64,000 nt of DNA from Ceratodon purpureus (lineage: Eukaryota; Streptophyta; Bryopsida; Pseudoditrichales; Ditrichaceae), in assembly GCA_014871385.1 (NCBI GenBank), contig CM026426.1, positions 72,010,756 to 72,074,755 of the forward strand, given 5' to 3'. The position numbers were made by a program, and so were the translations under genes. Within the stretch, counting starts at the first letter, position 1, and each line of letters opens with the position of its first letter. Of this stretch, positions 11,701 to 39,466 are shown piece after piece. Below the pieces are notes generated by a model. It was not told the DNA's origin and made no database searches. It saw only the letters and a program-made list of their open reading frames with translations.

Positions 11701-13917
11701 CGATTTCAAGGTCGGCTCTATTCTCCGCCTCGACTCTTTCCCTGAACTCCAAATTCTCTTTCTCGTATGTTGCGTATTCTTTGATCCACTGGACATATGC
11801 GCACAGGGCGTCTAGCTCGGGATATGGCTCCTTCGCGGTCATGCTTGCCACAAGGTTCTCTATGCTTGTGGAAATCCGATCCCGCACCGCCTTCAAGGTG
11901 TTCGGCAGATTTTTGTCCGTCTGTAAGTGGTCACACAGAATACTATCAAACACAGCACTTGACATGGCATTCGTACAAGCTGCAAACAACCGCCGGACAC
12001 ATACTGCACGGTTGTATAGTCATTGTTTGCTTATAGTAACCGTATTATCACTTGCCACGTTTTTAACAAACTTGGATCATTGTTGGTGTAAGTTACCTTT
12101 TTAGCAGTCCACCACCAAAGACAGCCCATGAGCGACTCTTGGAACGCGGCACTTAAGAATGATGAATCCGACTTCCTTCTGAAGTCATCCGCACCTTCAC
12201 AATCCCGCGATTATGGCAGTTCCACGGCGTCCTGGAATGTGCGCAAGTAATAGAGACCAGGCATAGGTGGTTCCGTTGGGGGAGCGGGGGGCTGTAATTT
12301 AGAGAGTCTGTCATCAGATTTATGTTGCGCAAGTGAGAGATGCATTCTCTCAAAATCCCGGAGGACTTCTTCCCAAGCCAATAACGTTGGCTCTAGTTCG
12401 GGATGGAACGTGGCTCGGTTGGGTGTTCCATGGCCCTCGGTCCAGTACTGTGACAACCTTAGATTCGTGTCAAATTCAACTTCCCAGGTGACCATGCTCA
12501 AAATTGCTTCCTCAACAGATTTGTTTCGTGGCACATTACAGGCAGTGTCACGAGCTTGGATCCTTGGTTTTTTCCACCATAAGCCACCATTATGTCTGGT
12601 TTTGTCACCACGTTGTACGCTCCTGCATACTGGTCGGCTTGGCATTCTTCTCCCGTCTTTGTTGCGGCCAGGAGGTGGGCAATCTTGTCTCCGAGCGGTT
12701 TATGCACCGCAACATGTGCGGCGTATCTTCTATCCGCTCCACGCTATCCCTGGTGTGCATGAGGGACCGTGTCCAGCCGGGCAGTACTTGTACCAACACT
12801 GCCAGTGGCCTTCTTAGGAAGCTTCTGCTTGAGCGCACCCCCTCTTGACGTGGTCGCTGGTCCAGCCTTTGTGGTAACATTGATATTTGTTGTCGTCAAA
12901 GGAAGTGGCAACCCCCCGCCCTGGTACTCATTGGCAGCCATCGCGAAGGGCATTGAGGCCCAAGCCAAAGTATCAAGACCTTCACATTCAAAGTTCGTTG
13001 TTTGCCGCAACAAGGTGCACTGTCGAATCTCCCCACGCATTCTGTCTGGACGCTCAATTACTGAATTAATGAGCGCACCGTCACCTTCAAAAGATACATA
13101 ACGACATACTCTCTTAGATCTACGCACCGGCTCCTCTCCGTCTTGCGAGACCTCTTTGCTTGGTCTCTTCCCCTTGAGCACTTCGTGACCTGCACTCAAC
13201 TTTCCGACATTTCTTGCGTTACGCTCGCCCTGCAACACTTGCTTCCCTCTCTGGGTCTGTTTCCGGATCAGTACAGCGGTGGCGCCGGATTTAACGGTCC
13301 TCCCAATGGTTTTTGTGTTCTTCGGGGGGGGGGGGGGGTGCCAGACCACAAAGAAAATCACCTCCGGGACGAAGAACGGTATCTGACACCGGACTTGGTG
13401 CTCCCGTGACATTGCCTCGGTTCTTCGTGGCCGAGACGCCGTTGTGTACATTGTCAAAAGAAGCGAAGTCCTCATCGGAGATATCTTTCCTCTCTGGAAT
13501 CCCCGTCGTCTTCGCAATAGTACGTTCCTGTCAAATCTCAGTGGACCTTGGAGAAACTGTGACCCCCTTCACCAAGCTCTGCACCATCTTCCCATGTCCT
13601 TGTAAAAAAGCCGGATATGGAAGCAGTAGTGCTTGCCTCCCGTCCGGATACTTCGCTTCCGGACAACCATCTTCGTACCTATGCTGGTTCAGCTGGAGCT
13701 TATTGCTGAAATCATCCTTGCCGCAATAAATGCAGACAAAGTACCTTCGATTAGCACCTGGTTTCTTATCCCCTTTGCACTTTGTTGCAAACTCGAGCAT
13801 GAGTTCCTCCACTTTCTGCTGGTCTGGATACTCCATGTTGTAAAGACGTTCATAAATCTTCACCGGCTGTGTCACGGACCCCGTGTCTACCATGTCTCCC
13901 TCCTTGCGACGCACCAT
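8717..13917 (-). pseudogene. Zinc-finger / Ulp1-like (C48) protease gene, copy 1
   Basis: A long multi-exon minus-strand gene. The first exon (13917 down to about 13530) has a C2H2-like finger, CIYCGKDDF...HRYEDGC. The middle (about 13500-9860) is long, mostly charged or disordered, with a conserved LWWWTAKKV stretch near 12120 and a Trp-rich segment near 10900-11100. The C-terminal part (9838-8717) has a C48 Ulp1-type peptidase layout: His in CDHSS near 9345, Asp in LFDSLSG near 9292, Gln in TQQTG and Cys in ECDHLS near 9150-9130. C48 enzymes cleave SUMO-like conjugates, and such domains are often carried by plant MULE and CACTA elements. Lesions include a TGA near 13530, a TAA near 12210 and a TAA near 9318. 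Exon order and many residues match copy 2 (52.3-56.0 and 17.6-18.5 kb). Confidence 0.75.
13324..13338 (+). repeat. Poly-G tract (15 G)
   Basis: A run of 15 G on the + strand inside the Ulp1 copy 1 gene, reading as poly-Pro on the coding strand. Copy 2 also has a long G run, but at a different place (53969-53985, in an intron). Confidence 0.9.
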
Positions 13918-13929
13918 CCGCGTTACTAG

Positions 13930-15180
13930 TATGAGACCAGTAGACCAACTAAAATTCCATGTAACCCTGTAACATACAGAAAAGGGATATTAGATAATGC
14001 AATGGTTTAGCAAGTACAACCCAATGACCCTTAATGCCCTAAGTGCTTCTAACTCGACATACGTCAGTGTCACAAGCATCATAGGTCATCTCAAATGTTG
14101 CACCTATGCGGTATGCCGCCCTTAAAATAAAATTAGCTTAGGAGTCAAAGCTTTCCACTCCTGTCGTAAATACCTAGAACGTAACTGGAGAAATTTGGGC
14201 AAGCCGTTTCAGTACTACATATTAATCCTGTATTCAATTGATCAGTTTGTGCATTTCAGCCTAGGGACAATCCCCCAAGCGATGAGTCTTACATTGAACC
14301 AAATACAGTAGCGACCAACACGGCAGCTATTACATGCAATTCTGGCTAGACAGAGTCCAACACGGGAATTCCGCTCCACAGAATGACCTCCTCCTATTTC
14401 CAATCGGCCCTTCCTGAAATTCAAGTACTGACAAACCCTAAGATGCACTAAAGTATTGCCCTAACGAAGAAGACAACCCCGAACTCTCATGGAAATGTCG
14501 AAATCAGGAGCGCAGATAAAAGGAATGCACTGGGCAAACCCGATCGCTACAACCCACATCACCTTCTAATCGATTAAGGGTTCATGGTCTGTGAGTACAC
14601 ATTTTAGAGAGGCGCAAACCTAACCTCCTCCGAACCCAAAACCTCTAATTTTAAAAGATTCAAACAGAGATGGTGGGGCGCAATAGCTGAATTCCTTACG
14701 AAGTTCTGAAACTTACGACCGCCCGGAGTAGGAGGGCAACGCCCTCCACCACAGCGGGTGATTCCAACGTTGCTCCAAAAAGAAGAGCAATCGGTGTGTA
14801 AAAGCGCGGCACGGTCTAGTCGCCGCACTGCAGTGTCTTCACGCAACCTGAATCAAGAATGCACTCCCCGTATTTCCCACCCCAACTCTCCATGTCCATA
14901 GTTGCTCCTCAAAGAAAACTAGGTTGTCGCAAACACCGCGCAATCTCCTCTTCCCGATCTTCACAAGAACTGCTCTGTAGCGTTGGGATTCAACACGCGC
15001 GAAACACTGGCGGGCAAATGCTAACCCCATGTGTCACGAGCAATGGACGTCGATGACGTGGGATAGTACGTATGCAAGCCCATGTATGCGAATTCAATGA
15101 TCCGAGGCAACGAACTGTAGGAAACCTAATCCAGGGTTTCCTGAATTCCCATTGAAAAACTCGCAACACCTTCGAGGCAC
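13930..15180. other. Upstream region of Ulp1 copy 1, no gene
   Basis: Mixed-composition DNA 5' of the minus-strand Ulp1 gene; it should hold that gene's promoter. No coding frame stands out. RTGTCACR motifs occur at 14066 and 15031. Confidence 0.4.
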
Positions 15181-22164: not shown

Positions 22165-22188
22165 TCTCACAACTTCCACAGCTAACAT
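22165..22188 (-). pseudogene. Captured methyltransferase exon, end portion
   Basis: Minus-strand continuation of the exon at 36591-36652, separated from it by the level-3 element. Joined across the 10-bp duplication it reads GGVLIDVSCGS, the AdoMet-binding glycine motif seen in plant chloroplast-type methyltransferases of the At2g41040/At1g78140 kind. A GTGAGA donor-like sequence follows, so the exon probably ends here. Confidence 0.55.
22179..22188. repeat. 10-bp target duplication of level-3 MULE, left
   Basis: CAGCTAACAT here and at 36591-36600, same orientation, directly outside the inverted ends. Excision restores the captured methyltransferase reading frame. Confidence 0.92.
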
Positions 22189-22205
22189 GGGGAAAGTTCG
22201 TATGT

Positions 22206-22261
22206 GAGCGGAGAGCGTAGAGCGGAGAGCGGAGAGCACAGAATGGAGAGCACAGAATTGA
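22206..22261 (+). repeat. Left TIR heptamer array of level-3 MULE
   Basis: Eight 7-bp units in register: GAGCGGA, GAGCGTA, GAGCGGA, GAGCGGA, GAGCACA, then GAATGGA, GAGCACA, GAATTGA. The inner units drift from the consensus. The inverted partner is at 36511-36573. Confidence 0.9.
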
Positions 22262-22944
22262 CAATTAGCAAAATTTTCAAAAGCAAAGTAGACCCTATAA
22301 CCGTGGAAAATTACTAAATTAAGGCTTGATTTTGTCACTTTTTTTAGGAAAAGAGTATATTACCGTGGAATTCAGGGTTAATTCTGGTAAGAATTTGTTA
22401 CGTTTGTTCTCTAAGATACAAATTAGGGCTGATGTCATGATGACGTCATGCATATATTTTGTTGGATTTGTCATGGGTACAGGCAAGTTACAATGATCAT
22501 GTGTTAAGTTTTAGATCAAACAAATAATTCTTTCATAGGATTATGTAAATGCACAAGGCAAAAAACAACTTTCACAAAACATAAAGGAGGCAAGGTTTGA
22601 AAACTTCCTGGAATATTTCAAAATTCGTGTAAAATATCTTAACTGCTGAAACCAAGATATACCTTGTTAGAGTCCTTGTCTTCATCGAAGATTACTCTCT
22701 TCCTAGGCAGCGAAGCATCTTCATTTGAGTGATACAAGTAGGAGATTTTCATCATGATACAGCACTTGGTAAGCTGGGTTCCAGATGAGGAGGTCACTCT
22801 TGGTTTCTTGAGCTTGTTTCTAGGTGGCGTATTAGGATAGTGACACAGTCCTTGGCATTCTGTGTTGTATGCGAAGGTAGCGATGGAGTTCAGGGGGGTC
22901 AATCTGTAGGCTTATGTGGAACTTTTTAAGACTACAACAATTTA
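22262..22944. other. Level-3 left subterminal region
   Basis: AT-rich DNA containing TGATGTCATGATGACGTCATG near 22431-22451, an imperfect palindrome around TGACGTCA. A minus-strand frame at 22639-22902 (87 codons, basic then acidic) could be an exon but has no recognisable domain. Confidence 0.4.
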
Positions 22945-23328
22945 GTGTGTTGCGCCATGCCGAAGGTGTGTAATGCGAGATCGAGGAGGACGAGAGCGGC
23001 TGTAAGTTTGCCCCCAAAGGCACCGGCGAGTTATCAGGAGCTGCGGCCCTGGCTGTTGGAGGTGGAGCGCGCTAGAGAACGAGGCATGGACCTGCCTCCG
23101 TTTAGGCACATCGGAAGGCTCCATGTTGGTGAAGGTGAATGGCGTTGGATAGTGCTTTGTACCAATGAGCTTCTCCGTATTATGGAGTTGTCCCTAATCC
23201 CGTATCCCTTGCTATCGAACGTCGATGAGAATCCAGTTGTTCAGCTGCCCGAAGTGATCATATCGGATGGCGAAACTTGCTGGTTTGATATCGAAAAGAG
23301 TTGGACTGTATATCCTCCGAAGGATTAG
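22945..23328 (+). CDS. Unrecognised small protein near left end of level-3 element
   Basis: A 127-codon uninterrupted frame of natural composition: a basic N-terminus (residues 5-25), then a compact Trp/Leu-rich domain, ending in an acidic stretch and WTVYPPKD. The likely start is the Met at residue 1 or 6. It lies between the left inverted end and the convergent ParB/methyltransferase gene. No known motif is seen. Its intact state, when the two large genes carry stops, makes it worth testing as an accessory gene. Confidence 0.45.
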   Translation: MCCAMPKVCNARSRRTRAAVSLPPKAPASYQELRPWLLEVERARERGMDLPPFRHIGRLHVGEGEWRWIVLCTNELLRIMELSLIPYPLLSNVDENPVVQLPEVIISDGETCWFDIEKSWTVYPPKD

Positions 23329-23844
23329 TACCGTGAAGTCTAGTGGGGTGGTCGAATACATTCCTTTAGATTTGGTCCCTTATTGGATCTAGATACGAGT
23401 ATTCCAGCATGATGGTTTCAGATAAGAGAGACAATTCTAGGAATAAGACAACTCGAAACCAACTAAAAGAAATGGTCCTAAAAGTGCGTGGAATATTTCA
23501 GCGTTTGTGTACAATAATGGAGTAGCAGAAACCAAGATGTACACCAAGTCAAGAATAGGTAACATGGCTATGGAAATGTGGGATTTTGAATGATTAAAAT
23601 ATAAATTAAAGCGCAATTTAAATTTTGAGCATTTCTTTTGTAACATTTCATTCTTCATATTATATTTTGAGCATTACAGTTGTGACATTTCATCCTTTAC
23701 AAACACGGAGAGGAATAGGAAATGAGAATCATAACAAGTTTAGGTTTAGGGTAGTAGAGTAGACGACGGAATAGGCAATGAACTCCAATTAAATCAAATC
23801 AAATCAGATGAAAACAATGAAATACCAGAGCCTCCTTCAAACTC
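23329..23844. other. AT-rich 3' flank
   Basis: No gene. AT-rich sequence between the convergent 3' ends of the ORF at 22945-23328 and the ParB/methyltransferase gene; terminators for both are expected here but no specific signal is recognised. Confidence 0.4.
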
Positions 23845-26800
23845 ACAACATGCTAAAATCGCTACTTCCACTCTCAGAATTAGATGACTCTGAATCTCCT
23901 TCTACAGCCTCTTCATCGACGAATAGAAGGGCCCTGGGATCAAAAGTAGTTGGCCGACTAGAAACATATGTGAGGGCTCCAGATTGAAACGCCTGTGCTA
24001 AGTCCTCTACGTAGTCCGGAAGTATAAAAGGCTGAATCAGGCTGGAATGAAGACGCCACGATGGAGTGGATACTGATGTTGGCCCACGTGGCGGTGTTGC
24101 CGAAACTACTCTGCAATAGAAAACCAATTGTGGTTAGATTAAATACGTAGAGGTGCAAAGAGAAGCAATGCTTGGAGAATTTGAACAAAGAATAGAAGAC
24201 TTACACCACTTATCACGTCTTCTTGATCTCTTTGCAGGCGCTTCCTCTGCTGCAGCGGGCCTAGGATGTTTTGGAGGGCCCATGGCAGATGACGTAGCCA
24301 TATACGGTTTGAGAAGGGCGTTGAATATGGCTTTGTCCTCCTCACAAGCTATAATATGACGACCAATACTCTGGCAAGCCTTAAGGGAGGCACCTAAAAA
24401 CACGTAGCACAGAAAAGTAGTGAGTCCCTGTGGAGAAAATCAGAGGATTGGAAATGCAGAAATTGTTAATGGAGGATTACATGTTCCTGTCGACCACTCG
24501 AAGACTATGTCACCGGGCTTGGTCATCTCCTCAATGATGCCCTGCATCATCTCAGGGGCTTTCTCTCTCGGGCCTCTCCACGGCACCTCCCCATTCATGA
24601 GCTGCGAGTCTGCATCGGTGAAGTTGAGAATGGCATCACTCTCGGTAATGTGGAGGTCGTTGTAGACGACATCAGATTTCTTCGTCTGAAAAGAAAACTT
24701 GGATGGGGGGGAACCACCACGAATGAAGACGTGCACCCAGAATCGAAGAGACTGCGAGAAACAGAAATATGTGAGTGTAATTAAAAAGAAAACTGAGTAG
24801 AATGCAAAGTCAAGCAAAGATTATGATGTACATACCAAGGAGCCGGGCATCGTTGGGTGAGCCAAGCCTAGTGCATTGAAGCCCCACCAGTCACGGTGTT
24901 GCACGAAGCCATCAGCAGCAGCCACTTTGGAAATCTTCGTAGCCAGACGTTGGTCGTTGTTGTGGATGATGCAGAGAGCACCATCAAACTACAAATAATG
25001 TCTTGCGAATTCGAAGAGGTCCTCCAAATAATCCTTGCCGCGTTTGTTCCAAGACGGAGGGACGTAGGTGGGATTGGATATCGTGGGGACCGGAAGATTC
25101 TCAGGAACGTCGACAATGATCAGGTCGAATCCCAAGTGATTCTCCTCATTGCATCTATCAGGAACTCGGTTCTCGCGACCTGCCCCAAACTTGAGTAAAC
25201 AAGAAATCAGAGTTAGAAATTACAAGTTTTACAGAATATAAGAATTAAAGGAAAAGAATGAAACAACGAATCATACCATTCGAATGATGTCTAGAGCCTT
25301 GTTCCATTCGGGATCGCCACCAACGTCTTCAAGTTCCTTGTGTCGGGATAGAACCGAGCCCAAAGAGGAGTTGATGACATAAACCTGAGAGGAATTGAGA
25401 GTTCCAGCCGAAGAGGTACACTGTGGGAATTTCTTGGTTTTCCTCTGCTCGAGGAGACCTCTGGTGACCTCGGAAGCACTTATCGAAGAAGGAGCCGGCG
25501 AAGAAACAGGAGAAGGCTTCGTAACGACAATACCTGGAGAGGGCTCTGGTGCCTTCTCAGCTGGCGCGGAAGACTCCGCACCAGTTTGCTGTGATGCCTC
25601 TGACTCAGAACGCAGAGATTTCAGTCGCCTTCCTCTCCCTCTCTTCGGTGGTGGAGCAGAAGACTGGTCCTGCTTTCCTTCACGACCTTCTGCATCATCC
25701 AAGGAGGCTTCGACCACCACCTCACCCCCATCGTGTAGCATCTTAACGTCCGCCTCCGAGTCAATAGTGAAACCACCAATACAATCAAGATACCAGCATC
25801 CAGCATCCAGGTTAGCAGCTTTGTACCTTTTTATCTGCTGGGGAGAGTACATACACTGGTCCGAGGATGTCTGCGTCCAAAGCTTGAAGTACTTGGGGAG
25901 GTGCTGGACGCTGATGGCCCCCTTCAAAAGAAGCTCTCGTTTGAAGTACCTATGGTAAGACATATAGAAGGTAAGTATAAGAAACAATTGCAATGAAAAA
26001 TACGAAACGGAAATGCAATTTAGTTACTTCAAGTACCGGTATGTAACCCGCTTGACAACTTGAGCGGTTCCAGGGAATTTTGCGAAGTTGGACTTCTTGT
26101 CGAAGTGCTTATCAGCCTTTTTTCCAATGAATGTAGGGAAGGCCTTGTCCCACAGCAGAATACGTGAACTCTCGACAAAATCGCCCGGCTGTTGGACATC
26201 AGGAAATGCCATCCAATTGATGTCGAGGTTCTTTGTTTTGAATATGTCCTCGACTTCGTTGATGACGGCGTCCTCCAACTGTAAAACGAAATTCACATAA
26301 GTAGCAACGAGAAATAATTTGTGAGATAATAAAGGAACATGGAATTAGAAAGGTTTTATTATGAAACTTACCCCAGCCCAGAATGAAGCTTTGTTCAACC
26401 ATGGGTCAAATTCGGTGTCCTTGAATTCAGCTGGCAGAAATCTGTAAGACATTCGAGCACTCGGTGATGAGTTCCACCACTTCAACCAACGAGCCTTGTA
26501 TTTGGCCTCAACGGTCGCTGGAACAAGCCTCTGAAGCTTTTTGAGCGTCATCTCAGGCTTATTGTTGAGACTGTAATGGCGATTGATCTGCAAGAAGCAC
26601 CAAAGTTTTAAAAAGGATTAATACAGAAATTATTGAAGTCATACGAAACAGTGAATTGAACAATGATCAGTGAGTCACCTCATTGAGGAAGTCGTCACCA
26701 TTCTTGGGATTTGCAATGGCCAAGTACTTGGTAAAGTCCTTCTTCTTGATGGCTTCGACCATTCTCTCTGATGCCTCATTCATGACATCCCAAACTGCAC

Positions 26801-28640
26801 TTGCAGACCGCTCATCCTCGGGTGTCTTCTTGAGGTAGGCAGTGGCTGCTTCATCGGAGGCCGCAGCAAGTTCCCGCTGTAGAAAAGATAATCAAGCCTT
26901 AGGAAATTCCATGAGTATTGAATAATAAGAAGCAAATAGAGAGAGGAGGTAGGACTTACTCGGTACAAAAATGCGATGAAAACTTTAGTTGTCAAGGGAA
27001 ACCAAGAGGGATTAGGTGGCTTGTTCTTCAAACATGCGTCATACTCTTCAGGACTGAGGAGGTCTTTAAATTCCTCCAGCTTCATCATTCCGAAGGAGCG
27101 GATTCGAAATAGTTTTGCGGGGAGATTACTCTTCACGTGGTCATTCTCAGTCGACCTGAAAATAAACCAAAATACGTATGATGAATAAAAGAGATGAGAT
27201 AAAGTAACAAATGGAAAAACAAGAAAAAAGAAACAAGTACTTACCAGTTGATGTCATGCATTGCGTGAAGAAGATTGCCAACATAGCCACGAGGGTCGAG
27301 TACTATGCAGTGCACAGATATGTGCCACGATGGGTCGTCTGCATGGTGCTTGTTGATATGACGAAGCCATGCTGAGAGGCGATGGTTACCTTCCCAGACA
27401 AAAAACATCTTCCCCGAGAACTGCGACCACTCCTCGTCACTTTTAAGCTCAATTTCAAAAGCATCATTCGCGTCCCTCCATAATGGGCTCCATCTAGCCA
27501 TGACGTCATCCGTAACATCTCTTGTCTGCTCTTCGTTGTTGTACATAGAGATGTACATGACGCGGTCGCCATCTCTATAGCCCTTAACAAACTCCCGCTC
27601 CAAATGCTGTACCCCCACTTCGCCAATCGGTCTAACCTTGGTCATTGGGATCATCCTGCACAAGGGCACCGACATTCGGGACTTCTGCGATGGCTTGATC
27701 CTGAGCTTGTTGATGACGGCGTTGGAGTCCACCTTGTATTAGGTTCGATGTTCCAATTCCCCTTCCTTGGCAGTCTTCAAGTTTAGTGGACAAGATGGTT
27801 TCACCAACACATCTTGTGTTTGCGTAACCTGCGAGGGTGTGCGCAAATTAGGAGATCAAGCACAATCAAAGAAAGTCATGCAAAGTAGAGAAGTATGTAA
27901 AAGAAAGTAACAATATATCTTCATACTGTCATCTATCTTTTAACAACTCAATCATCATCTGTGATTGATAAAACTATCTACGTGAGGACCGACTATAGTA
28001 CTCCTTCAACTGTCTACAGTTCCAGTGACGGCGCCTCCTCCAAAATCGCTTGGTCTGTTGGACAGGGCACGGCAGAATAGCCGGCAGAGCAAAGACCACA
28101 TGGGCTGGCCTCCTGACTCTAATTGGCGAGGAAGGAGAGGGTGGAGACATCGGCGGGGAGCCTTGTGGAGGAGACGTAGGCATATAGCCCGGGGAGGTAG
28201 GCTCATACACCGGGGATGTAGGCATGTACACTGGCGAGGTAGGCATGTACACTGGCGAGGTAGGCATGTACACTGGCGAGGTAGGCATGTACTGTGGAGA
28301 GTGGACCTCGAGAGGTCCACTTTCCAGACCTACAGGGTTGGCTACATCACAGGTACAGTAGTACTGATTAAATGAATCCGAAAGATCGGAAACATTGATC
28401 ACAAAAATGGGGGAAGTAGCGGACATCTCAGGAGCATCGGATGATACGTAGAGTAGAAGAAATGGAGTGAGGATTAACTTCCATTTTTAAAAAGAGTAGG
28501 AAACAATGAAGGGTACACGGCGAAAAGAACTCAAATTCATAAACATAAGAAAATAATATAAATTGTAAATTAAATGAAATACCTCAGTTTCTGCAGGCGT
28601 CGGGACCTGACGTTCACTCTTGAGATGACCTCCATCTGAG
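23845..28640 (-). pseudogene. Multi-exon gene: CTD-like heptads, ParB-like domain, beta-class DNA methyltransferase-like domain
   Basis: Exons in order: about 28640-28583; 28460-27972 (CTD-like heptads); 27822-27242 (ParB-like); 27136-26945; 26880-26681; 26587-26373; 26283-26029; 25955-25280; 25190-24838; 24755-24430; 24398-24200; 24120-23845. The ParB-like part has VPLCRMIP and the core FFVWEGNHRLSAW (near 27405-27365), like the ParB/Srx fold's GxHR element. The last third resembles a DNA N4/N6 methyltransferase in beta order: IIVDVPEN in the place of DPPY (near 25095), then PGDIVFEWSTGTG (AdoMet motif, near 24500-24390) and CQSIGRHIIACEEDK. The DPPY-like motif is altered, so catalysis is doubtful. 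Two in-frame stops are visible, TAA 27739-27741 and TAG 24989-24991, each one change from Gln. ParB plus methyltransferase fusions are known in phages and bacteria; origin here is inference. Confidence 0.65.
28172..28294 (-). repeat. RNA polymerase II CTD-like heptad array
   Basis: Inside the second exon of the ParB/methyltransferase gene. Successive heptads read YMPTSPV four times, then YEPTSPG and YMPTSPP, followed by a Pro/Ser-rich tail. The DNA shows a 21-bp tandem repeat (GTAGGCATGTACACTGGCGAG) at 28217-28288. The form YxPTSPx matches the RPB1 CTD heptad except at position 2, where Met or Glu replaces Ser. Confidence 0.9.
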
Positions 28641-28770
28641 TCCTAAGCAATGTGATATTTATTAGAAAAAAAAGCAACTATAAAGAATCAAACAACACCC
28701 TCGACAAGGCTCACAAAAAAACCTTAAAAACTGAGAAAAACTTATTAGACTTTCATCAAAACTCTGAACA

Positions 28771-29060
28771 AGGTTTACATTTCAATTCGGATTTTGTGAG
28801 AAGCAAAGCATTAACATTACCCAAATGGTCACCCAATAAAAGAAATAAAAATATCAAACCAAAATCCCCAAAATACCCCCCCCTCCCCCTCGCGGCCCTA
28901 CTGTCGTGCACGACAGTAGGCGGGCGGGTTCTCAAATTTTGCAAAATGAAAAAAAATAAAAAATTAAATCCCAACAAATCCCCACGACCTTTACATTTCA
29001 ATTCAGATTTTGTGAGAAGCAAAGCATTAACATTACTCAAATGGTCACCCAAGAAAAAAA
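28771..29060. repeat. Direct repeat pair flanking a palindrome
   Basis: A block of about 70 bp beginning TTTACATTTCAATTC occurs at about 28774 and again at about 28990, differing at a few bases. Between them lies a perfect 24-bp palindrome at 28897-28920 (arms CCTACTGTCGTG). This looks like a small insertion or a solo repeat pair inside the gap between the two leftward exon groups. Confidence 0.75.
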
Positions 29061-29324
29061 AAATGCACTAGGCCTCATTGGAGGCCGAAGCCTCCTCGGC
29101 TGGAGTGCTCTAAGATCAACTGGAGTGCTCAAAACCGAGGCTTCATCGAAGGCATAAGCCTTCTCGGCCTGCAAGAGTTCGAGCGGAGGGGAGGTGAAGC
29201 CGCATTCAATGCTCAAAACAACCCAACAAATCCATGGCACTCAACAACAATTCCGAAGCACCCAATAAGAAAATTAAAAATAACAACCCAGTCCAAGTAC
29301 CCAACAACAGACTCACAACCCGAA

Positions 29325-29535
29325 TCCACATGCAAACTCACAACCCAAATCCACATGAATACTCACAACCCGAATCCACATGCAAACTCACAACCCGAAT
29401 CCACATGAATACTCAAAACCCGAATCCACATGAATACTCAGAACCCGAATCCACATGTACTCAGAACCCGAATCCACATGAATACTCAGAACCCGAATCC
29501 ACATGAATACTCAGAACCCGAATCCACAAGAATAC
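29325..29535 (+). repeat. Minisatellite, CCGAATCCACATGAATACTCA unit
   Basis: About nine imperfect units of roughly 24 bp; variants end in CAAACTCACAA or ATACTCAGAA. Its + strand frame encodes PNPHEYSEPEST-type repeats, but I regard this as a by-product since no start, intron or domain context supports a gene on that strand. Confidence 0.9.
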
Positions 29536-29711
29536 TCACCATAATGTTTAAATCCAAATACATTGTACCCTCTTATCACAACCTTGCCGTACGAGCTCAT
29601 GATGGTGCTTACGTCCGTACAAAAATCCAAGATTCAAAAACCCAAGATTCAAAAATCCCAACTTCCAAACAACCGGAATAGAATCTATGCACAGGTGGAG
29701 GGCGTTACCTG

Positions 29712-30680
29712 GTCTTCCTCTTCCTCGTTGTCGAGAGGATTGTCGTCTTCATCTTCCTCGCTGCCCTCGCTCCCGTCGCTCCCGCCTGGAGCTCCTACGC
29801 CGAGCTCAGGCTGAGGCTCGGGCTCCTCCAGCCGCAGCTCCTCTTCTCCCAGGCCTTGGGCCTCTCCTCCATCTCCTTGTCCGTCCTCCTCGACTCGCCC
29901 TTGCTGCTCGAAGCCTCTTGCCGCCATCGCAACCCCACCTTCCCCACCCTGCAAGATCCCCTCCCTGGCTCTCCTCGCAACTTCTCGCAAGCGCATGCTC
30001 TCGGTGCCCTCTCCAACTAGTGAGAGTGGAGTTGAAACTCCCACCTCCCTTATCCACTTGTTACTCTTTGTAAAATTAGGAAAAAAATAAGGATTAGCCG
30101 TCAAATGTAAAAAATTTCAATAAATCATACCCTAGTTTTGCAATAAATAAATGCTATATTTTTATTCAAATTGCACATGTACATAAGAGATTCATATTAA
30201 ACTTTGTCTGCGTACACTTACTTCAACGGAATTAAAGTCATGCTCAAATTGAGAATTAGGGCCCCTTGTCAAAGAGTCAATGAATCTGATAGAAGTCTCT
30301 GGTGATTCTACTCTCTGACTACAATTAAAAACTAATTCATCCGTCATGGCCTCACGTGCAACTCCACTTACGAGTACCTCCTCTTCGTGCTCTTGACTCT
30401 CAACAACGGTGTTCTCTAATATCTCTTCCTTCTCCTCCACTATAGACTCGATAATGAGTTTGCGAATGCTACAGAACTTCAATGCTACAGGCAGGCCGAC
30501 TCCTCTCCTTTTTACAGGAGCACTCAAATTGTCACCTTTAAAAACTACCTTCTTACGTAATGCTCTCTTCGTTCTAGCTCTCCTATCCGTGAAATCTGTA
30601 CCACCTGGTTTTCTTCTAGGTTTAGGAGTGACAAAAGTGGAGGGAGATGGCCCTCCACTCTGCTTCATGTGTCTAACCAC
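29712..30680 (-). CDS. Acidic/basic two-exon protein, or 5' end of the leftward gene
   Basis: The first exon, from the ATG at 30680 to about 30228, starts with a Lys/Arg-rich segment that could direct nuclear entry, and then becomes Glu-rich. The second, about 30062 to 29712, begins NKWIREVGV and ends in a strongly acidic run (SEEDEDDNPLDNEEEEDQ) at a GTAACG donor-like site. Because it lies just upstream of the ParB/methyltransferase exons on the same strand and ends at a donor, it may be that gene's 5' end, with the repeats at 28.77-29.5 kb in the intron. No domain is recognised. Confidence 0.45.
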
Positions 30681-31197
30681 AGGAAGGACTCTCTTACAAA
30701 AAGACTCTCATGAGAGCTTCCTCCCAGCTTAAATACCTATGACGTACCACTATTTTTATTAAACCTTAAGCTCAAATACATTCTAAACCACTGACACATT
30801 ATATACCCATTTTATATTAAGAGTACCAATGACAATTCTATATTAAAGTATAGTTTAAAATTTCAGCCCTAAAATAAAAGGTAGAAATTCGAGCACTTCA
30901 ATGCTTGCCGCTTTTAAAAATCATTGTTTTAAATGTAGAATTTAAATGACGGCTCATTCTAATCCTATAATAAATCATAACAAATAGAATGTGCTCCTGG
31001 ATTCAAATTATCAATGTAGAGTTCTAAAAATCTTGCCTGATATTCTTAGACCTGCAAAAGTGGCATTATAATTAGTTAGCGCCGTCTCTAATAAATCTTA
31101 CATTCGTTACCTAACAGAATGAATCATTCTCCATCTGTTCACAAGGACATTCCAACTTGAATAAAATGATCAACAACGATGCATCATTCCTCTCACT
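30681..31197. promoter_or_regulatory. Divergent intergenic region between the two main level-3 genes
   Basis: AT-rich gap separating the leftward start (30680) from the rightward transposase (31198). It should contain both promoters. No TATA box could be assigned with confidence, and no repeat shared by the two directions was seen. Confidence 0.5.
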
Positions 31198-34100
31198 TTG
31201 GTCTCGCGATACGGCATTGCTAATACACTCTCTCTTCTACTCTCTGCGTCTGTAAACATGGGAATGGTGTGCCTGTACGCCCAAGGTATGGGCATCCCTC
31301 TTAGGTTTCGCGTAGATGACGATGGTCTTGCTACAGTCTCCTCTCTTCGCCTGAGTCTCAGATTCCATTTCCGTGAGGATTCTATAAGTATAGAGGAGGA
31401 GATGTTTGATGACGTTACTGCCGAGGTTACCCACACCCTCGGGCAACCTTCAGTGAGAGATGAGAACAATATGTTGCAGTGGAGACTCCTCCCTGGATCC
31501 TATAGAGTCTATGGTCTTCCTGATTCTCTGATGGCTGCATCCACTGAGATCCTCACCCCCCGTCGCTCTTCTACTTGCATAATTCAGACTCCCTTACCTC
31601 GTGATGTCAAGGTCAAGGTCGAGCCTGGTACTGAAACTTCAGACGTAGAGAAACCTCCCCCTCCGACAGTCATTACTCTCTCCTCTGATGACGAAGTCAG
31701 TCCCGTAAAGTTGGTGTCCAAGGTCGACGCTCATGCTCCTCCTTCCAATGTCTCTCCTCCATTGTCCCAGGTCACAGTTAGCATAGTTCCGCACCTTAAA
31801 GAGATTGCTAAGACGCGTGGGTCAAAAAACATTTTGAAAAAGTTGGACTATTCCACTATTAGACACGAGAGAGTAGAGTACTTGCCTGCGAAGTTTGATG
31901 GTCCGGTTCTTTTTGAGTTGCCCCCAGCTGCTGCAGGATCCTCTAAGCTCGCCGCCAAGTCAATGCAGGGAATGGACAAACGATACGACGCACACTTGTG
32001 GACCAAGACCATCACAACAAACATCAAAAACGACTTCGGACTCTCTTTTTGAAGTTCCACCTGCGTCGGATGGCTCCGCTGCAGCAACAAGGAGTGTGAC
32101 TTCCTGAAGCGTGTTCCCAAGATCTTCGAGGTTAACGAGACTGAGTTCGAAGGCTGTACCCTGCAAGCTTTTCTCATGGATCAGCCTCCTCCACCTGACT
32201 CCACGCTAGTGTGCAAGGTATGTAAAGAACCTCCATCATGTGTAGCTACATGCGAGGCTAAGATTTATTACGTTGTGGGCAAACCGAATCAGACTAGAGC
32301 TTGTATTCACATAGGAACACATGATCATCCAGTGAAAGTTGGAGACTATAGAGACTCTAAAGCAGAGATTAGTAGCTTAATAGAAGAGCAGGTAGAGATG
32401 AACAACAAAGCAACAAAGAGCGCTGTTGTCCTGGAGGCGAGCAAACTCCTCATCGGGAGCTACCTTCTACAGCCCGAGGATGCACCACCGAGGAAGCTGA
32501 CGATGGAGGAGCTGGTTCCTGTTCTGGATCGTTGCAAAGACATGGCGTCACCAAACATCCGCAACAAAGTCGCCACCTTCAAGAAATTCAAAAGGTACGG
32601 AATCATGGACGGTATCACCAAGGTCCGTGGAAACAGTCTCTGGGCGTATGTGCAGGAGAATAGGTTTCCTGGTCAGGGATCTATGCGTGACAAAGTCTTC
32701 GTCTTCAAGATGTCGGAGGTCGGGCCGGGAAGTGGTGTCGACTTGGTCAGCCGAATGCAAGCTGGTGGCGACTTGGAGAACGCATGGATCATGTTCGACC
32801 ATGTAAAACGCGTTAAAGACTGGTCGACGATGGCGTGCCATGTGTACGACGCCACCTACTGCCGCGTGATGACAATCGCCACTTGCGACATGCAGTCCGA
32901 GGATACGGAGGCCCAGCTCGTCTTCTGGAAAAACCTGAACGTGGTCATGGAGATCAATGGCGTTGTAGCGCCGAACTTCAAGGGGTTCATGGCGGATAAC
33001 GCATAGGCGAATTAGAATGCAGTGCGAATCCTTTACGGCAATGGCAACAAAGAGGACCCAATGGAGGACCGGGTGAGGTCGTGCTTGTTCCACTGGACTC
33101 AGAACATGGTGGCGTATACGCAGAAGCACTTCCCCGAAGAACTCTGGGAACAGCACAAGAAGATGTGCACTCAGTACAAGAATTCGACCAGCATGGCAGA
33201 GGCGGAAACTTTGTACCACGCGTTGCGAGCATGGTAGGCATCCACCGGGGTCGTTGGCGAGAGCGGGCTCATCAAACTCGATCAGTGGCTGTCATTCTGG
33301 CACCACCCCTTCCGCCAGTGGGGGGGATTCATGACCGAGGTATTATCTCTGCACTCTGTTTTCATGTTTTTGATACTGGTTTCCTAGCCCTAACCTACAA
33401 AACTCTAATCGGTGAATCTAACGTCACCTACTATCTACACTGCAGAAATTTACGGAAGAAGAACTCACAGAGATGCCGACCTATAACCTCGCCGAAACAA
33501 TTCATAACAAGTGGCTCCAAGCTTCAGGAAACAACGGGAACGACCTGTACGTTGCTACCGTGGACGATTTCGTTCGGGCATTTCTACAGGTTGGCAACTA
33601 CTACCAGTTCCTCAAAGGTGACGTCGGGGGAACAGGACCGTCCAAGAAGGAACTCTGGCTTCGGATGGCTGAACGCAACGCAAAGAAATGGGGAAATCCT
33701 ACACTGCTCGATAAGCCCATGGACGATATGCCAGGCGCGGATGAGTTCTGCACCCGTCAGCCTATCATGCCTGGAGCGGAAGTCTTCGGTTCACAGAAGC
33801 GAAAAGCCGACGTCCTTATCGGAGCTGACGAGGAGTCTCATCGCCCGGACAAGACAAACTTCTCACGCCCAAGAGGCCCAAGACGTGCCGTCAGGGCTCG
33901 CCCTATGCAGATGCCTGTCATTGTGGAAGACGACTCCGAACACGACCCCGAGGTAGAAGGTACCCAATCTCCTGCCCCGGAAGTTGATTCCCCTTTACCT
34001 TCACCTGTGAACAAGGGCGGCATTTGCCATGTCAACGCGGTTGAAGAAACTAAGGTGGACGTGAAGGAGTGGCACATTTCGAGACTTCACAAACTTTCTG

Positions 34101-34939
34101 CGAAGTGCTGCTGGGCCCAAAGAGCTGAAACGAAGAAGAAGTGCACTGAGAGAATTGTCAGGGGGCCCCATTGCACAGCTGCCCCGACCTACACTGGGCT
34201 TTGGACTAACTACCGCAAGAACACAGTCGAGAAGACAGAGTTCTTCTTCTGCTCTGATGATATTGAGCGCTGCGTGAAAGGCTCTAAGCGGAAGTGGATA
34301 GCGCACTACTCAAAAGACCAGGAATTCCCCTCCATTCCAGAGGTGTGGCCAGTGAAACTTGGTACTAACCTAAAACTCACTGAGATTCTTGCCCTCGAAG
34401 CAGCGGGCTTTCAACTTCCGCCGAAGAAACCGGTCTCCCCAAGACGCCTGTTCTCTTCTGCCCCGCCCATTGCAAATCTCAGCTCAGTGCCAGTCCATGC
34501 AGACGCTGACCGCTACCCAGGCAAGAGAGACGGCAAGATGGTGAAGCGCACTGCCACTCGTCCCAATCAAGCGCAGCGACTGTCCATGGGCTCCTCCGAG
34601 TCTCTTAAAGCGCGCCTCCGTTCCGTCACCATGATACCTGAGCCGGGCCACCGTTGCATCATTGGGCTGGATTCGGGCGTCGCTCCACACATCGCACAGT
34701 ACCAGATTACCATCAGTTCTTACCCTGGTTGCACTTGCCCAGCATTCAAGAAGACGATGACTACGTTCGTTGGCAAGACTCAGTTCACGTATTGTAAGCA
34801 CCTATACTACATACTCTTGAAGGTCTGCAACCGTGATCCCGAAGCCGAGCTTTTCATCCATGCGCCTACCTTCAGCTTCAACGAGGTCAAGCTACTCTTA
34901 GAGAGTGGAATCTTGCGTCACCCCTTGGCAAAGAAGTAG
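31198..34939 (+). pseudogene. MULE-type transposase with SWIM zinc finger, level 3
   Basis: Two exons, 31198-33339 and 33446-34939, joined at a GT/AG intron: about 1,211 codons in one frame apart from four stops (TGA 32050, TAG 33004, TAG 33013, TAG 33235), each one change from Arg, Gln or Trp. Order: an acidic/Ser-rich N-terminus; a Cys/His-rich DNA-binding-like region (residues about 286-385); a DDE core with Asp near codon 551 (VYDATY), Asp near 600 (MADNA) and Glu near 731 (NLAETIHNKW); a linker; a second Cys-rich stretch; and a SWIM finger CTCPAF...CKH near 34729-34800. The start could be downstream, as the first 50 residues are weakly supported. It would act on the heptamer-array ends; that specificity is inferred. 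A decayed relative lies at 45540-46345. Confidence 0.85.
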
Positions 34940-35190
34940 GTAGCCCTCCTACTTTAGAACTGCCATTTCCACAATGGCCATTTGTCACGTAGTGAATGAT
35001 TTTAGTAATATCCCATGTACTAAGTCCGCAATACGGAAGCTATATTGACTTTTTCATTATAAAGGCTTTGTTGTTCTCATTGATTGTACTCTATTTGAAA
35101 ACATTCTATCTTGAACAAGTGCACTATATACTTCGTATCCCCTGACATGTATCTTTTATTACAGCAAACATATACTTGTTATTAGATGTC

Positions 35191-35643
35191 TCAATCTTCG
35201 AACCTAACACGTTTAGGGTTGCCCACTACACTATCAGCAGGACTGCCAGCCGCTGACTGTACTACAGGACAAACTACATTTGCATTCACTTTCGTTCCCA
35301 CACTTGGAGCGTGTCCTTGGTATGAACGTTTCAGCAATGGCCCACCTCCCCGCCTCCGATTAACTGATTCCCTGGAATAGGTTCCCCTTGGGATCTTTCC
35401 AACCTTTGAGTATGCATGTGGTTGCAAAGGCACATCTGCGTCCTTCTCTAGCACTATGATTTCATCCGAATTTTCTGAACGTGGAGGGTCAGCTCTTACA
35501 TCCGGTTGTACGTCAACATCCGTTGTCGAAGGACGCCCTTGGCTGTTGGCCATCACCTCTTCTTCGTCCTCCACCTCAACATATGGTTGAAATGGACAAA
35601 CATCGTCAGCAAGTGGAACAACAATATCTCTGACGTCTTCCAT
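35191..35643 (-). CDS. Small acidic protein with basic C-terminus
   Basis: A 150-codon intact frame convergent with the transposase. It is acidic in the first half (for example EVEDEEEV), has an ENSDEIIVLE stretch in the middle resembling a SUMO-interaction-like hydrophobic-acidic patch, and ends PKRVRFED, a possible nuclear-localisation or docking tail. An identical-type IV(I)LE patch cannot be confirmed in other genes here. No family recognised. Intactness beside damaged large genes suggests a retained accessory ORF or recent acquisition. Confidence 0.5.
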   Translation of the reverse strand: MEDVRDIVVPLADDVCPFQPYVEVEDEEEVMANSQGRPSTTDVDVQPDVRADPPRSENSDEIIVLEKDADVPLQPHAYSKVGKIPRGTYSRESVNRRRGGGPLLKRSYQGHAPSVGTKVNANVVCPVVQSAAGSPADSVVGNPKRVRFED

Positions 35644-36510
35644 AGCTGCTGTCCCGCACTATAGAAAAGAGCTTCACATAACACCAACACAAAAGAGGCA
35701 GAGACATTCCCTACTCTTATCTTAAATATCCTTGAAGAAGATGCTTGGCGCCCTTGAAAATCGGCTATTCATTCATTTAAAAGTTGTCATCCTCCTAAAC
35801 CGAATGGAAAAAGATGAAGGTTTAGCAGAGGTCATTTAGCATTTAATTTTTTTTTTAAAAAATTAAAGAATGAAAAAAAAAAAAAACATTTATATAAATT
35901 GAAATTAAAAAGATTAAAGTAAAGAATAGCAATATTTAATATGAAGGTTGAAAATAATATGAAGGAGATTAACAAATTGAATGTGAAAATAAAATGAAGG
36001 AGAGAATTAAATGAAAGGAGGCTTTTGACCCCTCTAACAAGATAGATAGAATAAAGAAAATTTTATAAAAAATACAAGACAAATATCAAAAAAAATTTAA
36101 AAAAATTAAAAAAAGGAGAAAGGCATGTAGACTATGGTGGATGAATTCTAGCAATGTTAAGAAAATGTTACGAAATTAAATGTTACTTGATCCCTGTTCA
36201 GAGGTTTAATACCAATACATTTTAAGCGGTAATTTGCATATAAATTTGAGGAGATAAGGGGAACTAATGTATGCTTGAACTAGTTAGAAGGAGCTGGAGC
36301 ATAGTAATTAGTGCACGTTAAAAAATTAATCACCAAGAAAAGAGAAAACGAACTACAAATTCAATGAAAATACTGTAATTAGTCCACGGTTATAGGGTCA
36401 ATTAAATTAATAAAATTAGTAAATTTCCAAAAATACACTAAGAATATTCGAATCTTCTAATTTTATAATTTATTTTTAGTAAAAAAAGTGTTATTTTAAG
36501 GTTCTGTCCC
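35644..36510. other. AT-rich right subterminal region of level 3
   Basis: A/G-rich, very low GC, with several poly-A and poly-T runs near 35845-35890 and 36080-36120. No coding frame. Confidence 0.6.
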
Positions 36511-36573
36511 CCATTCTGTGTTCTCCGCTCTCCAAATCTGCGCTCACCGCTCTCCGCTCTGCGCTCTCCGCTC
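36511..36573 (-). repeat. Right TIR heptamer array of level-3 MULE
   Basis: Read on the minus strand from the element end: GAGCGGA, GAGCGCA, GAGCGGA, GAGCGGT, GAGCGCA, an 8-bp variant, GAGCGGA, GAACACA. Partner of 22206-22261. Confidence 0.9.
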
Positions 36574-36590
36574 ACGTACAAGCTTCCGTC

Positions 36591-36953
36591 CAGCTAACAT
36601 CAATGAGGACACCTCCAGCAACTGCCTTGAAATAGTCTTGTGCCATCTTGAACTACAAATTTCAACAATATAGGGTGCCCTTAGAAGGGCCACCAATATA
36701 ATATAGTGTTGCTTAGCAGAAGTGAAATTGAAATGCATGAGCAACTACTGTATACACTAGAAGTCTGCAACTGGTTATTACAAGTAGGGTCTTCGTGCTG
36801 ATATGCTGTATCTCTGCTCTGCGACTAATGTGCACAGTTCAATGTATATACTCATGTAGCATAATCTAAAGCAACAAAGTGTTTGCAAAGCTGAGACTAA
36901 TTACCTCCTCATCAGGACCTCGAAAATTGGCCCAGAAAAAGCTATTTTGCACT
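36591..36953 (-). pseudogene. Captured plant methyltransferase exons
   Basis: Two exon pieces on the minus strand: about 36953-36905 (FFWANFRGPDEE, ending at a GTAATT donor) and 36652-36591 (FKMAQDYFKAVAGGVLIDVS, after an AG acceptor). The second continues at 22188-22165. The wording FxGPDEEFxMAxDYF and GGxLxDVSCGSG is characteristic of plant chloroplast-targeted, UbiE-like methyltransferases (Arabidopsis At2g41040 and At1g78140 type) as I know them. Introns are retained, so capture was from genomic DNA. It is not a complete gene and not translated as such. Confidence 0.6.
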
Positions 36954-37044: not shown

Positions 37045-39466
37045 TCGTCTAACAGCATTTCATACAGTAGTATGCCTGCATCAAGACAAAGGGGTTACCA
37101 GAATATAATATTAGCTTGTGATGTTGCCCAACAAATATTCTATACCCTTGCTTCAGTTGAATATTCAAGTGAGTTTCAACATGTAAACCTTTTGAAGGTT
37201 AGCAAAAAGTCTCACCTAAGACCCACCAATCCACGGCATTGATGTGCCCTTGTCCAGCAATGACCTCCTGCATTGAAAATAATCCACGATTATTTCAGCA
37301 ATGTTCAAGAAATCAAAGTCTAATTTTTGTGTGGCTTGGAATCTGATACTGATGCATTATCATTCTACTAGCTTCTGGGATAAAGAGAACTGCCAGGGAA
37401 CAATAAAAAATGGAGAACATAGAGTAAGTGCCATCCTTAAAGGGGCTATATACTCTTCTGTCCCCACAAAAGAGTTAGATGGTGTCACTGGCTCTGCAAG
37501 GAACACAGGACGAACTATGTCCTTCGATTTCTTCACTTTCTTTTTGGGCTTCTCTGTAGGAATTACGTGGATGGCAGATTTCAAATCTTGTCTTAGTCCA
37601 ACTGAAAAGAGTGACTTGTCCACGAATTGTGGTCGTTGCATTCACTGACAAATTGGTGTTAAACTTCACAAGAAATGCATTCGAACTGGTTCAGGTTAAG
37701 AAATTTGAACAAATTTGCACTTTAGGCGCGGATATGAATGAAAGATCAAAATCAGTCAGTTGCTCATGCCCACTCTCAATGACCAGGATATTCTCTGGTT
37801 TCAAGTCTCTGTATTCCACACCTGAAATTGAAAAAATTAGAACAACGGGAATTAGAAACTAAACACTGATCACCCACTTTAACGAGTCTCGACACCAAAT
37901 AGCTCCAATCGCTGAAATTGGTTCTGAAGCAGTCTAAGCACGTACACTTCAAGCGTAACAAGACAGAAATTAGGACCTTCAATTTGCTGGTAGGGTTTCG
38001 ATACTCGAAACAAAGATGCCGTTCTAAGTCTTAAAATCTCCTCAACGAGATTGAACCGTGGCAATGAATCATTGCGATCCGGTTGAGAATACAATGTGCA
38101 AGAAAGACGATGAAGAATATCTCACTCACTCTTGCAAATTGAATGCAGGTACTCCTATGTAAGCACCACCTCAGCAGCGTAGAACCTATCATCAAACGGA
38201 GGTCCAACGATTGATAAACCGGTTTGGATTCAAGCCATCACATACTACAAACACAAGTGCAGATGCAACAACACGTCATAGCAATACCTACTAGCGGAAT
38301 CTTCACGGAAATGTTTCTTGGGCTATCTCTCAAGCACCAAGAATAGCTCTCCGCCTGGGCAGAAGTCTGTAAGCAAACACACATGTGTCAGATCCCGCAT
38401 ATTTCAGTTTCAACACTGGCCTCAGTCCATTTATGCTACTTCCAACTTGACGATATGAAATCATCACCATAGCTAGCTGGATGCGGAGGACAGTTGCCTA
38501 GGTACGACAAAGTTTAGGTGATATAAGTAAGGTGTAAGAACCTGAAATGACGCGTACAGAGTAGGTAGAAAAGGGTGATCCAAGAGATCCAAGATCTGCC
38601 TCTCAGCGCAAGCTCTGTGCACCTTGTTGCGATCCAGCATCACCATCTTGTCCATGGCCTTCATAGCATATACCATGTTAGTCACCCGCAACTCAACCAG
38701 ATGAACACTTCCCGTGTCACCGCATCCCAGAGGCTTGACGGGCTTGAAGTGCTTCAACCCCAGCTTCTGAACTGAAGTTCTAACCTGCTTACAAAAGAAC
38801 CACATCAAGCTCATCAGTCAAGTGCATGTCGTCTCACTTCTCTGCAGTAAATGAGCGTCAAGAAGCTTAAAAACTTACAATCACAACAATGTGGCTTGAG
38901 TCTAACCTTTATCGTGGCTTGCACACCTTGCACCGGCGTACCAAGCATGTGTGGCTTAGGGCGAACAATCCTTATATGGAACACCCACAAGTCATCCGGT
39001 GCCTACAAATTTGTCAATATACTTTCAATTCAGAACATTTCACAACCATGGAATATTTCAGAGTCAAGAATTGGCATTAAGCTTTTGCGCCACCTTAGCC
39101 AAAGATGTAGGTCACAAACTCACCGTATTCCCGTCTGGTAACTCACGAACTGCGACGTCAATGTTCCTCGCAGTCTCTCGCACCTGAAGTGATCATCACC
39201 AGCCAGATATTGAAATCCAACCATTGTCAATTAAAATTGACCGTGGATATGTATAAATATACAAGAAGTTCTTAAAGTTTCCTTCGCATGAATGGATAGT
39301 ATGCTCACTAGCTTGGGACTTTTCTCCTCGGTGTTATCAGAAAGTCGATGACGCACCGGCTCCATGTATTCGCTCCCGTCGAGCTGCACTCCAATGAAGT
39401 ACTGCAGCTCACCTTTCTGATCACCCATATCTTGCAAATGAAACAGGTTCCTGAACGGCTTGCAGA
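37045..39466 (-). pseudogene. PHOT: Captured phototropin fragment (end of LOV2 through kinase)
   Basis: Exons with plant phototropin wording in correct order: 39466-39309 (NLFHLQDMGDQKGELQYFIG, LOV2 end), 39183-39124 (VRETARNIDVAVRELPDGNT), 39002-38907 (DDLWVFH), 38784-38542 (PLGCGDTGSVHLVEL, AMKAMDK, HRACAER), about 38392-38297 (DFCPGGELF), about 38200-38140 (FYAAEVVL), about 37815-37735 ([17 protein letters not shown]), about 37660-37440 (NSFVGTEEYIAP), 37271-37215 (GHINAVDWWVLG), about 37085-37045 (GILLYEML). Phototropins are blue-light receptor kinases; TDFDLSF is the family's DFD variant. LOV1 and most of LOV2 are absent. In-frame stops include TAG after LVLER and TAG before EYLH. Introns are retained. 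This is a transposon-captured relic, not a receptor gene. Confidence 0.9.

Follow-up and report, generated by a model that had tools for sequence, protein, structure and literature searches.

A large MULE-like transposon in the Ceratodon purpureus genome

We analysed a 64,000-nt stretch of the genome of the moss Ceratodon purpureus (C6:72010756-72074755, hereafter the window), in which positions 22189 to 36590 are occupied by one decayed copy, 14,402 bp long, of a large multi-gene DNA transposon that is repeated in the moss genome and resembles Mutator-like elements (MULEs). On its minus strand, opposite to the transposase, this element carries a gene for a protein that combines a ParB-like region with a DNA methyltransferase (MTase)-like domain, and this ParB/MTase-like gene, together with a palindromic tandem array in its putative first intron, is the subject of this work. 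The assembly searched (G000) contains 362,488,568 bases in 151 contigs, and contig C6, with 110,524,308 bases, is probably a sex chromosome; the genome of this species is described as 360 Mb in size with sex chromosomes of more than 100 Mb each (PMC8000587). For comparison we used the best 10 (c1 to c10) of the 39 other matches to the ParB-like exon that were listed out of 760 candidates, making 11 copies in all with that of the window (w).

The left edge of the element, near 22189, was present in all 10 other copies and the right edge, near 36590, was reached in six of them. Terminal inverted repeats (TIRs), with 49-nt arms that are 88% complementary, are located at 22189-22242 (plus strand, starting with GGGGAAAGTT) and 36537-36590 (minus strand), the first one forming the left end in all 10 other copies and the second one the same end in other copies. 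They are bordered by a target-site duplication (TSD) of 10 bp, identical at 22179-22188 and 36591-36600. Direct repeats flank the element in all seven copies with both ends (window, c2, c5, c7, c8, c9 and c10), measuring 11 bp in c2 and 10 bp in the other six, the exact ends having been adjusted by a few bases so as to obtain the longest direct-repeat match. MULEs produce TSDs of about 8-11 bp, and both hallmarks of the group, TSDs (10-11 bp) and TIRs, are found here. The shared edges, the TIRs and the 10-bp TSD bear out the transposon residence of the gene that had been proposed before from the letters of the window (hereafter the sequence-only reading).

The transposase is coded on the plus strand by two exons, at 31258-33339 (motifs YDATYC ... 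FMADNA) and 33446-34939. By eye it shows DATY, FMADNA, CLFHW and DATY..D..CxxH, a DDE-like core, and a SWIM-like CxC..CxH tail in the second exon. The window copy has four in-frame stops. Nine of the 10 other copies also have the transposase, in several of them truncated in part or broken, and c8 is devoid of it. The Pfam MULE model PF10551, which matches 93 other places in the genome, gave no match at E<=1 to the spliced transposase (with X at the stops), and the Pfam SWIM model did not match it either. The MULE assignment of the sequence-only reading stands in part: TSD, TIRs and the DDE/SWIM-like motifs seen by eye suggest a MULE-like element, although the Pfam MULE model misses its transposase. 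A second transposase-like stretch is located elsewhere in the window (4287-6499, plus strand), with a Pfam SWIM finger at E 0.00058 on 5432-6499.

Structure of the ParB/MTase-like gene

Eleven exons could be delimited by eye on the minus strand, from 28642 down to the stop codon at 23843, with GT/AG at all 10 introns and a single frame of 1085 residues that contains two in-frame stops. Exon 1 (28583-28642) is in frame and bordered by AG/GT, and exon 2 (27245-27828) contains the ParB/Srx-like region, with GNHRL and FFVWEGNHRLSAW, and one in-frame stop. They are followed by exons 3 (26960-27155), 4 (26679-26876), 5 (26372-26587) and 6 (26028-26278), and by exon 7 (25277-25949), which includes a low-complexity linker. 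Exon 8 (24836-25189) carries DVPE at the position of the catalytic DPPY motif and one in-frame stop, exon 9 (24481-24751) the middle of the methyltransferase-like domain and the start of the S-adenosylmethionine (AdoMet) motif I, exon 10 (24205-24393) the remainder of this motif (IGRHIIACEED), positions 163-218 of the PF01555 profile falling over exons 9-10, and exon 11 (23843-24108) the C-terminal tail and the stop. The order in the protein is a GNHRL (ParB-like) region, a long middle and a beta-order N6/N4-methyltransferase-like domain. A leftward gene of this make-up had been predicted at this place, and the in-frame 11-exon structure, the GT/AG introns, the constraint described below and the presence of GNHRL in exon 2 uphold the prediction.

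A further frame of 149 codons at 30222-30668 (minus strand), with a phase-0 GTAAGT donor, was found in 10 copies and is uninterrupted from its ATG onwards in nine of them. The donor GT is kept in each of the 10 alignable copies, the window being one of them, and extends to GTAAG or GTAAT in nine. This frame is probably the first coding exon, and the gene would then be longer than 28642-23843, with about 1234 residues; with this frame as the first exon, the ~212-bp repeat array (see below) falls within intron 1. An open reading frame (ORF; 27974-28426, minus strand), open in 9 of the 11 copies, with YMPTSPV heptads similar to the tail of RNA polymerase II, is also located between exons 1 and 2. 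It matches PF05001 at E 0.0022, under the cut-off, and its length in the open copies differs by whole 21-bp units.

The methyltransferase-like domain

The position of the catalytic motif precedes the AdoMet motif, i.e. the beta order. The window protein matched PF01555 at E 0.0014 (19 bits, under the cut-off of 26.7), and phmmer gave values of 0.0014 for DpnA and 0.11 for CcrM. With a seven-sequence profile, made from the window, c9 and five sister loci, these fell to 1.8e-7 and 3.9e-6, respectively, the sister loci (L029-L047) being related loci in the same genome. The profile matches to DpnA and CcrM, with the catalytic position before the AdoMet motif, agree with the beta-order domain recognised in the sequence-only reading. 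Both bacterial enzymes belong by profile to the same family; DpnA keeps the DPPY motif, unlike the window family, CcrM keeps it as well, and to our knowledge neither of them has a ParB-like part.

Sister locus L031, with an approximate splice, passed the PF01555 cut-off (E 2e-9, 38.2 bits). Genome-wide this profile had 32 matches, all over the cut-off, 31 of them without a stop in the matched stretch, and at 24 of the 32 places the DNA is also matched by the L034 exon. The AdoMet exon of the window's family is present in all 10 sister loci from L031 to L040, and the catalytic exon, found in eight of them, reads DQPF in five, DQPY in L031 and DTPF in L038 and L039; that of L036, taken from stretch L045, reads DQPF, and the stretch of L037 ends short of this exon. 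L046 and L047 are homologous over nearly all of the 3 kb compared, with no element edge seen there. Two of the PF01555 places, C1:5958254 and C5:15306119, differ in shape.

Within the family of the window itself the position of DPPY reads DVPE (window, c1, c2 and c3), DIPE (c4, c6, c9 and c10) or EVPK (c5), and c7 and c8 are devoid of the exon; [DSN]PP[YFW] appeared in no copy. Motif I is EWSTGT, DWNAGT or similar in this family and fuller in the related loci. The degenerate motif reported in the sequence-only reading is therefore not a peculiarity of the window: judging from these sequences the loss of DPPY is old, and it is family-wide because D[VI]PE is found in eight of the nine copies with the exon and EVPK in the ninth. 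As to an intact DPPY in other copies, also envisaged there, it is absent from the family, and DQPF, DQPY and DTPF occur at the related loci.

The ParB-like region

The GNHRL motif is invariant in the five ParB-region sequences that we aligned (A2), is GNHCL in copy c2, and sister loci read VWDGNHRLVAW. A single-sequence AlphaFold model, with a predicted local distance difference test (pLDDT) score of 43.7, placed a strand-helix-strand at GNHRL with low confidence. In tblastn searches the ParB part had no match in phages and four weak matches at E about 2 in plasmids, and the methyltransferase part retrieved 139 weak methylase records in phages at E up to 1, the best listed at 2e-3. For the ParB part, the PHROGs and NCBIfam matches were all weak and unrelated. 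Related loci were absent from viral contigs and, searching with the methyltransferase profile only, from prokaryotic genome contigs, and the phage neighbourhoods examined contained no annotated ParB. A match to DndB in one of five members (E 0.027) was rejected, given that the same scan returned thymidylate synthase at 0.023. It is the motif alone that suggests a ParB-like region, and only the same pairing reported in Ectocarpus (see below) adds strength to the suggestion.

A palindromic array in the putative first intron

The putative intron 1 of the window copy contains the remnant of a ~212-bp tandem array, two 72-bp blocks 216 bp apart (28774-29061), with a 24-bp perfect palindrome, CCTACTGTCGTGCACGACAGTAGG, at 28897-28920, and a 25-bp tandem array of 9.2 units is located at 29311-29539. 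The ~212-bp array was found in the putative intron 1 of eight of the nine other copies in which the region could be delimited, the exception being c6, and the palindrome is repeated in other copies about once per unit. A palindrome search free of any motif led to this site again in eight of the ten delimited regions, that of the window among them, c4 and c6 being the exceptions, and a scan allowing <=5 mismatches gave 36 sites, from 1 to 13 per copy, in 9 of the 11 copies, window included. No site was located outside the element in the 11 stretches (counting only the left flank where the right end was unreached), and 20 base shuffles of the window produced none.

Comparing the array types, the 22-bp consensus palindromes were identical between A and B (22/22) and differed at two positions between A and C and between B and C (20/22), while the rest of the unit was only 57-60% alike; the units had been chosen for resembling the motif, a choice that biases this comparison towards the palindrome. 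Genome-wide, the pattern with two free central bases had 1,875 matches and the reversed-pattern control none. The first 50 of these sites listed form five arrays, all on contig C1, and those at 10.93 and 14.07 Mb are 3.3 and 3.4 kb away from a transposase match (among the best 40 places listed), the distance in the window being 3.1 kb. At <=6 mismatches there was no site in L029-L047, stretches that do not reach the matching intron.

Decay, constraint and mosaicism

The spliced gene contains 2 stops in the window and 9, 1, 17, 5, 2, 1, 19, 1, 1 and 2 in c1 to c10, respectively. The higher counts follow frameshifts or large deletions, which are found in c1, c3, c7, c8 (devoid of the methyltransferase exons) and c10. 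The exon lengths of c2, c4, c5, c6 and c9 differ by multiples of three only, and the splice dinucleotides are mostly kept, with single exceptions in c1, c2, c4 and c7.

The ratio of nonsynonymous to synonymous substitution rates (dN/dS) was computed for nine pairs. In the six more distant ones (c2-c9, c2-c6, c5-c6, c2-c4, c4-c6 and c2-c5, which are not independent) the ParB-like exons gave 0.11-0.24 and the methyltransferase exons 0.32-0.45; for the window, the two values were 0.30 and 0.37 when paired with c6, and 0.35 and 0.25 with c2. The closest pair, c6-c10, gave 0.42 for the ParB-like exons, 1.42 for the methyltransferase exons and 0.72 for the whole gene, with so few changes that little can be said on recent selection. 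From these substitution patterns, the gene is one that has been under past purifying selection at the protein level.

The copies are also mosaics. Along c4, c6, c9 and c10 (150-bp steps) identity to the window is mostly 89-98%, but within a methyltransferase cassette at 24100-25450 (minus strand) it is 57-87%, introns included, with six of the nine steps over 24.10-25.45 kb at only 57-70%. A second low patch (65-81%) is present at 25.75-26.05 kb in c6, c9 and c10, and at 28.6-28.7 kb identity falls to 80-82% in c4, c6, c9 and c10. The window-type cassette is found in c1, c2, c3, c5 and c7 where present. The opposite situation is found in c5 and c7, in which the gene is 88-97% identical to the window (400-bp steps, 23.8-28.6 kb) and the remaining element only 43-79%, a stretch of 213 columns in c7, at 92%, being the one exception. 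Between differing backbones the transposase DNA is 66-71% alike. On these alignments a similar ParB/MTase-like gene resides on differing backbones, and the methyltransferase cassette has been exchanged between copies, likely by gene conversion or recombination.

Regarding the distribution of these sequences, 20 of the best 40 of the 760 ParB-exon matches fall on C6 (12.2 expected by length, P 0.008), and so do 12 of the best 40 transposase matches listed (P 0.59). The contrast is a lead only, both lists being identity-ranked tops.

Relationship to known systems

The sequence-only reading knew of ParB-methyltransferase fusions in phages and bacteria but of none in a plant MULE. A protein with a ParB-like region and an N4/N6 methyltransferase, 1104 aa long and coded on the strand opposite to the transposase, is already described in the Ectocarpus transposon Sola1-1_Ec32, and the authors of that work propose that it binds and marks the DNA of the element itself; cases from green algae (Iyer 2011) and red algae (Petroll 2025) are cited in the same paper (PMC12477816). 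The moss gene resembles it, from its description rather than its sequence, in domain types, length (1085 to about 1234 aa), opposite strand and residence on a large transposon, and differs in the MULE-like carrier (10-bp TSD), the degenerate catalytic motif, the intronic palindromic array and the cassette swapping.

The other close parallel is VANC of the Arabidopsis VANDAL elements, which binds short motifs in noncoding tandem repeats, VANC introns included, and removes silencing of its targets (PMC5735166). Here too a Mutator-like element has an accessory protein, and element-specific motifs in tandem repeats are partly located in the introns of the accessory gene, but VANC is not presented as ParB- or methyltransferase-like in the sections of that paper on which we draw. 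The moss gene and array fit the VANC plan with different domains. More distant are the DNA methyltransferases (DNMTs) carried by transposons in Symbiodinium and Klebsormidium, the latter a charophyte, which are C5-cytosine enzymes of retrotransposons with no ParB-like part in the published description that we cite (PMC5890265). The N4CMT of bdelloid rotifers is likewise a permuted (beta-type) N6_N4_MTase of a eukaryote, but according to the sections cited it is a host gene with a chromodomain and an SPPY motif, active in E. coli and not transposon-borne (PMC8885841).

The class of ParB/methyltransferase transposons was already known, and what is new is the moss host, the MULE-like carrier, the intronic palindrome array, the cassette swap, the similar genes on much more divergent backbones and the family-wide loss of DPPY. 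Among the papers listed by our literature search, which left most subscription papers outside its reach, none dealt with a protein of this kind in mosses or MULEs, and none had the intronic array, the cassette swap or the family-wide loss of DPPY.

Possible role of the ParB/MTase-like protein

The explanation that we favour, with a probability of roughly 40%, is that the ParB/MTase-like protein is a VANC-like accessory for self-recognition and anti-silencing. Its target would be the palindromic site of the element itself, present about once per ~212-bp unit in the putative first intron, and binding of the array would keep the transposon family expressed. The methyltransferase fold of the window family, devoid of DPPY, would probably bind DNA or AdoMet without methylating, as had been supposed from the DVPE of the window, the related DQPF/DQPY loci may still methylate, and a swap of the methyltransferase cassette may alter the DNA recognised.

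Several observations weigh against this explanation. None of the 11 copies has a fully open gene, each having at least one stop or deletion, and the dN/dS of 0.32-0.45 in the methyltransferase exons is equally compatible with an active enzyme. Copies c4 and c6 have no site at <=5 mismatches, c4 despite its ~211-bp array. The cassette swap does not follow the palindrome, which is shared by array types A and B despite their different cassettes, and co-evolution of cassette and array, which we had considered, is unsupported. The ParB/Srx fold of the sequence-only reading also failed to be confirmed by profile, hhalign or AlphaFold/Foldseek: the Pfam model ParB_N (PF02195) had no match in the whole genome, nor in the window exon and four relatives, a profile search of PDB with A2 retrieved no ParB, hhalign against the SopB family gave 3%, on the wrong stretch, and Foldseek with the low-confidence AlphaFold model had no match at E<=0.001.

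Finally, the binder of the palindrome could instead be the transposase or a host factor, with the array acting as an enhancer or satellite-like sequence and the ParB/MTase-like protein working otherwise, for example as a transposition cofactor or in chromatin silencing. Transposases can bind repeated motifs, and the array unit is close to nucleosome spacing; the palindrome, however, is alike at 20-22 of 22 positions where the transposase DNA is 66-71% and the ParB/MTase-like gene 88-97% alike. The shared gene fits better than the transposase as the palindrome binder because site and gene stay alike across the diverged backbones, and we regard the transposase or host-factor alternative as clearly less probable than the VANC-like role. 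A passenger gene, captured without a role for the element and now decaying, would account for the stops in all 11 copies and for the frameshifts or large deletions in half of them. It is a very unlikely explanation considering the constraint between subfamilies, the in-frame indels in five copies, the sharing of the gene by two backbones and the similar pairing described in algal transposons of other superfamilies (PMC12477816).

It might also be that related members are active modifiers that methylate the DNA of the element, producing N4-methylcytosine (4mC) or N6-methyladenine (6mA), and that this mark protects it or guides the transposase. The N6/N4 methyltransferase profile matches, the D-x-P-[FY] and fuller AdoMet motif kept by related loci (31 of the 32 PF01555 matches being stop-free) and the constraint on the domain all point in this direction. 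Nevertheless, D[VI]PE in eight of nine copies and EVPK in the ninth, together with a motif I of the type EWSTGT or DWNAGT, argue against methylation by the window family, and the transposon residence of the related loci is only putative, so that active modification has an appreciable but clearly smaller chance than the VANC-like role. A bolder version of that role, which we put forward tentatively and hold for rather improbable, would be a partition-like pair in a eukaryotic transposon: a fusion of a ParB-like protein and a dead methyltransferase with its cognate intronic palindromic array, passed between backbones as a self-recognition module, its cassette exchanged like the specificity parts of restriction-modification systems, and evading silencing by the host.

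Few of the factors that let transposons escape silencing are known so far, VANC being one of them, and the moss element extends a class of algal transposon proteins that has received little attention to a land plant and a MULE-like carrier. The family also lends itself to natural experiments: two cassettes occur in otherwise similar genes, some related loci have a DPPY-like motif and others lack it, and the candidate site is matched 1,875 times in the genome. Since gene targeting is known to work efficiently in mosses, the question can be tested in this host.

Other features of the window

Within the element, two small ORFs are conserved. That at 22957-23328 (plus strand) is open in six of the eight copies in which it was found and that at 35191-35643 (minus strand) in seven of eight, the window being among the copies counted in both cases. 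Outside it, a large inverted repeat at 40309-42724, with 676-nt arms of 97% identity and tandem units of ~160 bp, is foldback-like. An open frame at 38476-38817 (minus strand) resembles a fragment of a plant AGC (phototropin-like) kinase, which we take to be perhaps captured host DNA. Related open frames at 13534-13989 and 55316-55999 (minus strand), sharing by eye YFVCIxxGKDDFSxKLxLNQHRYEDGC, probably belong to another repeated element, and those at 59982-63990 and 47037-48806 (minus strand) are, also by eye, Ty1/copia-like and gag/pol-like retrotransposon frames.

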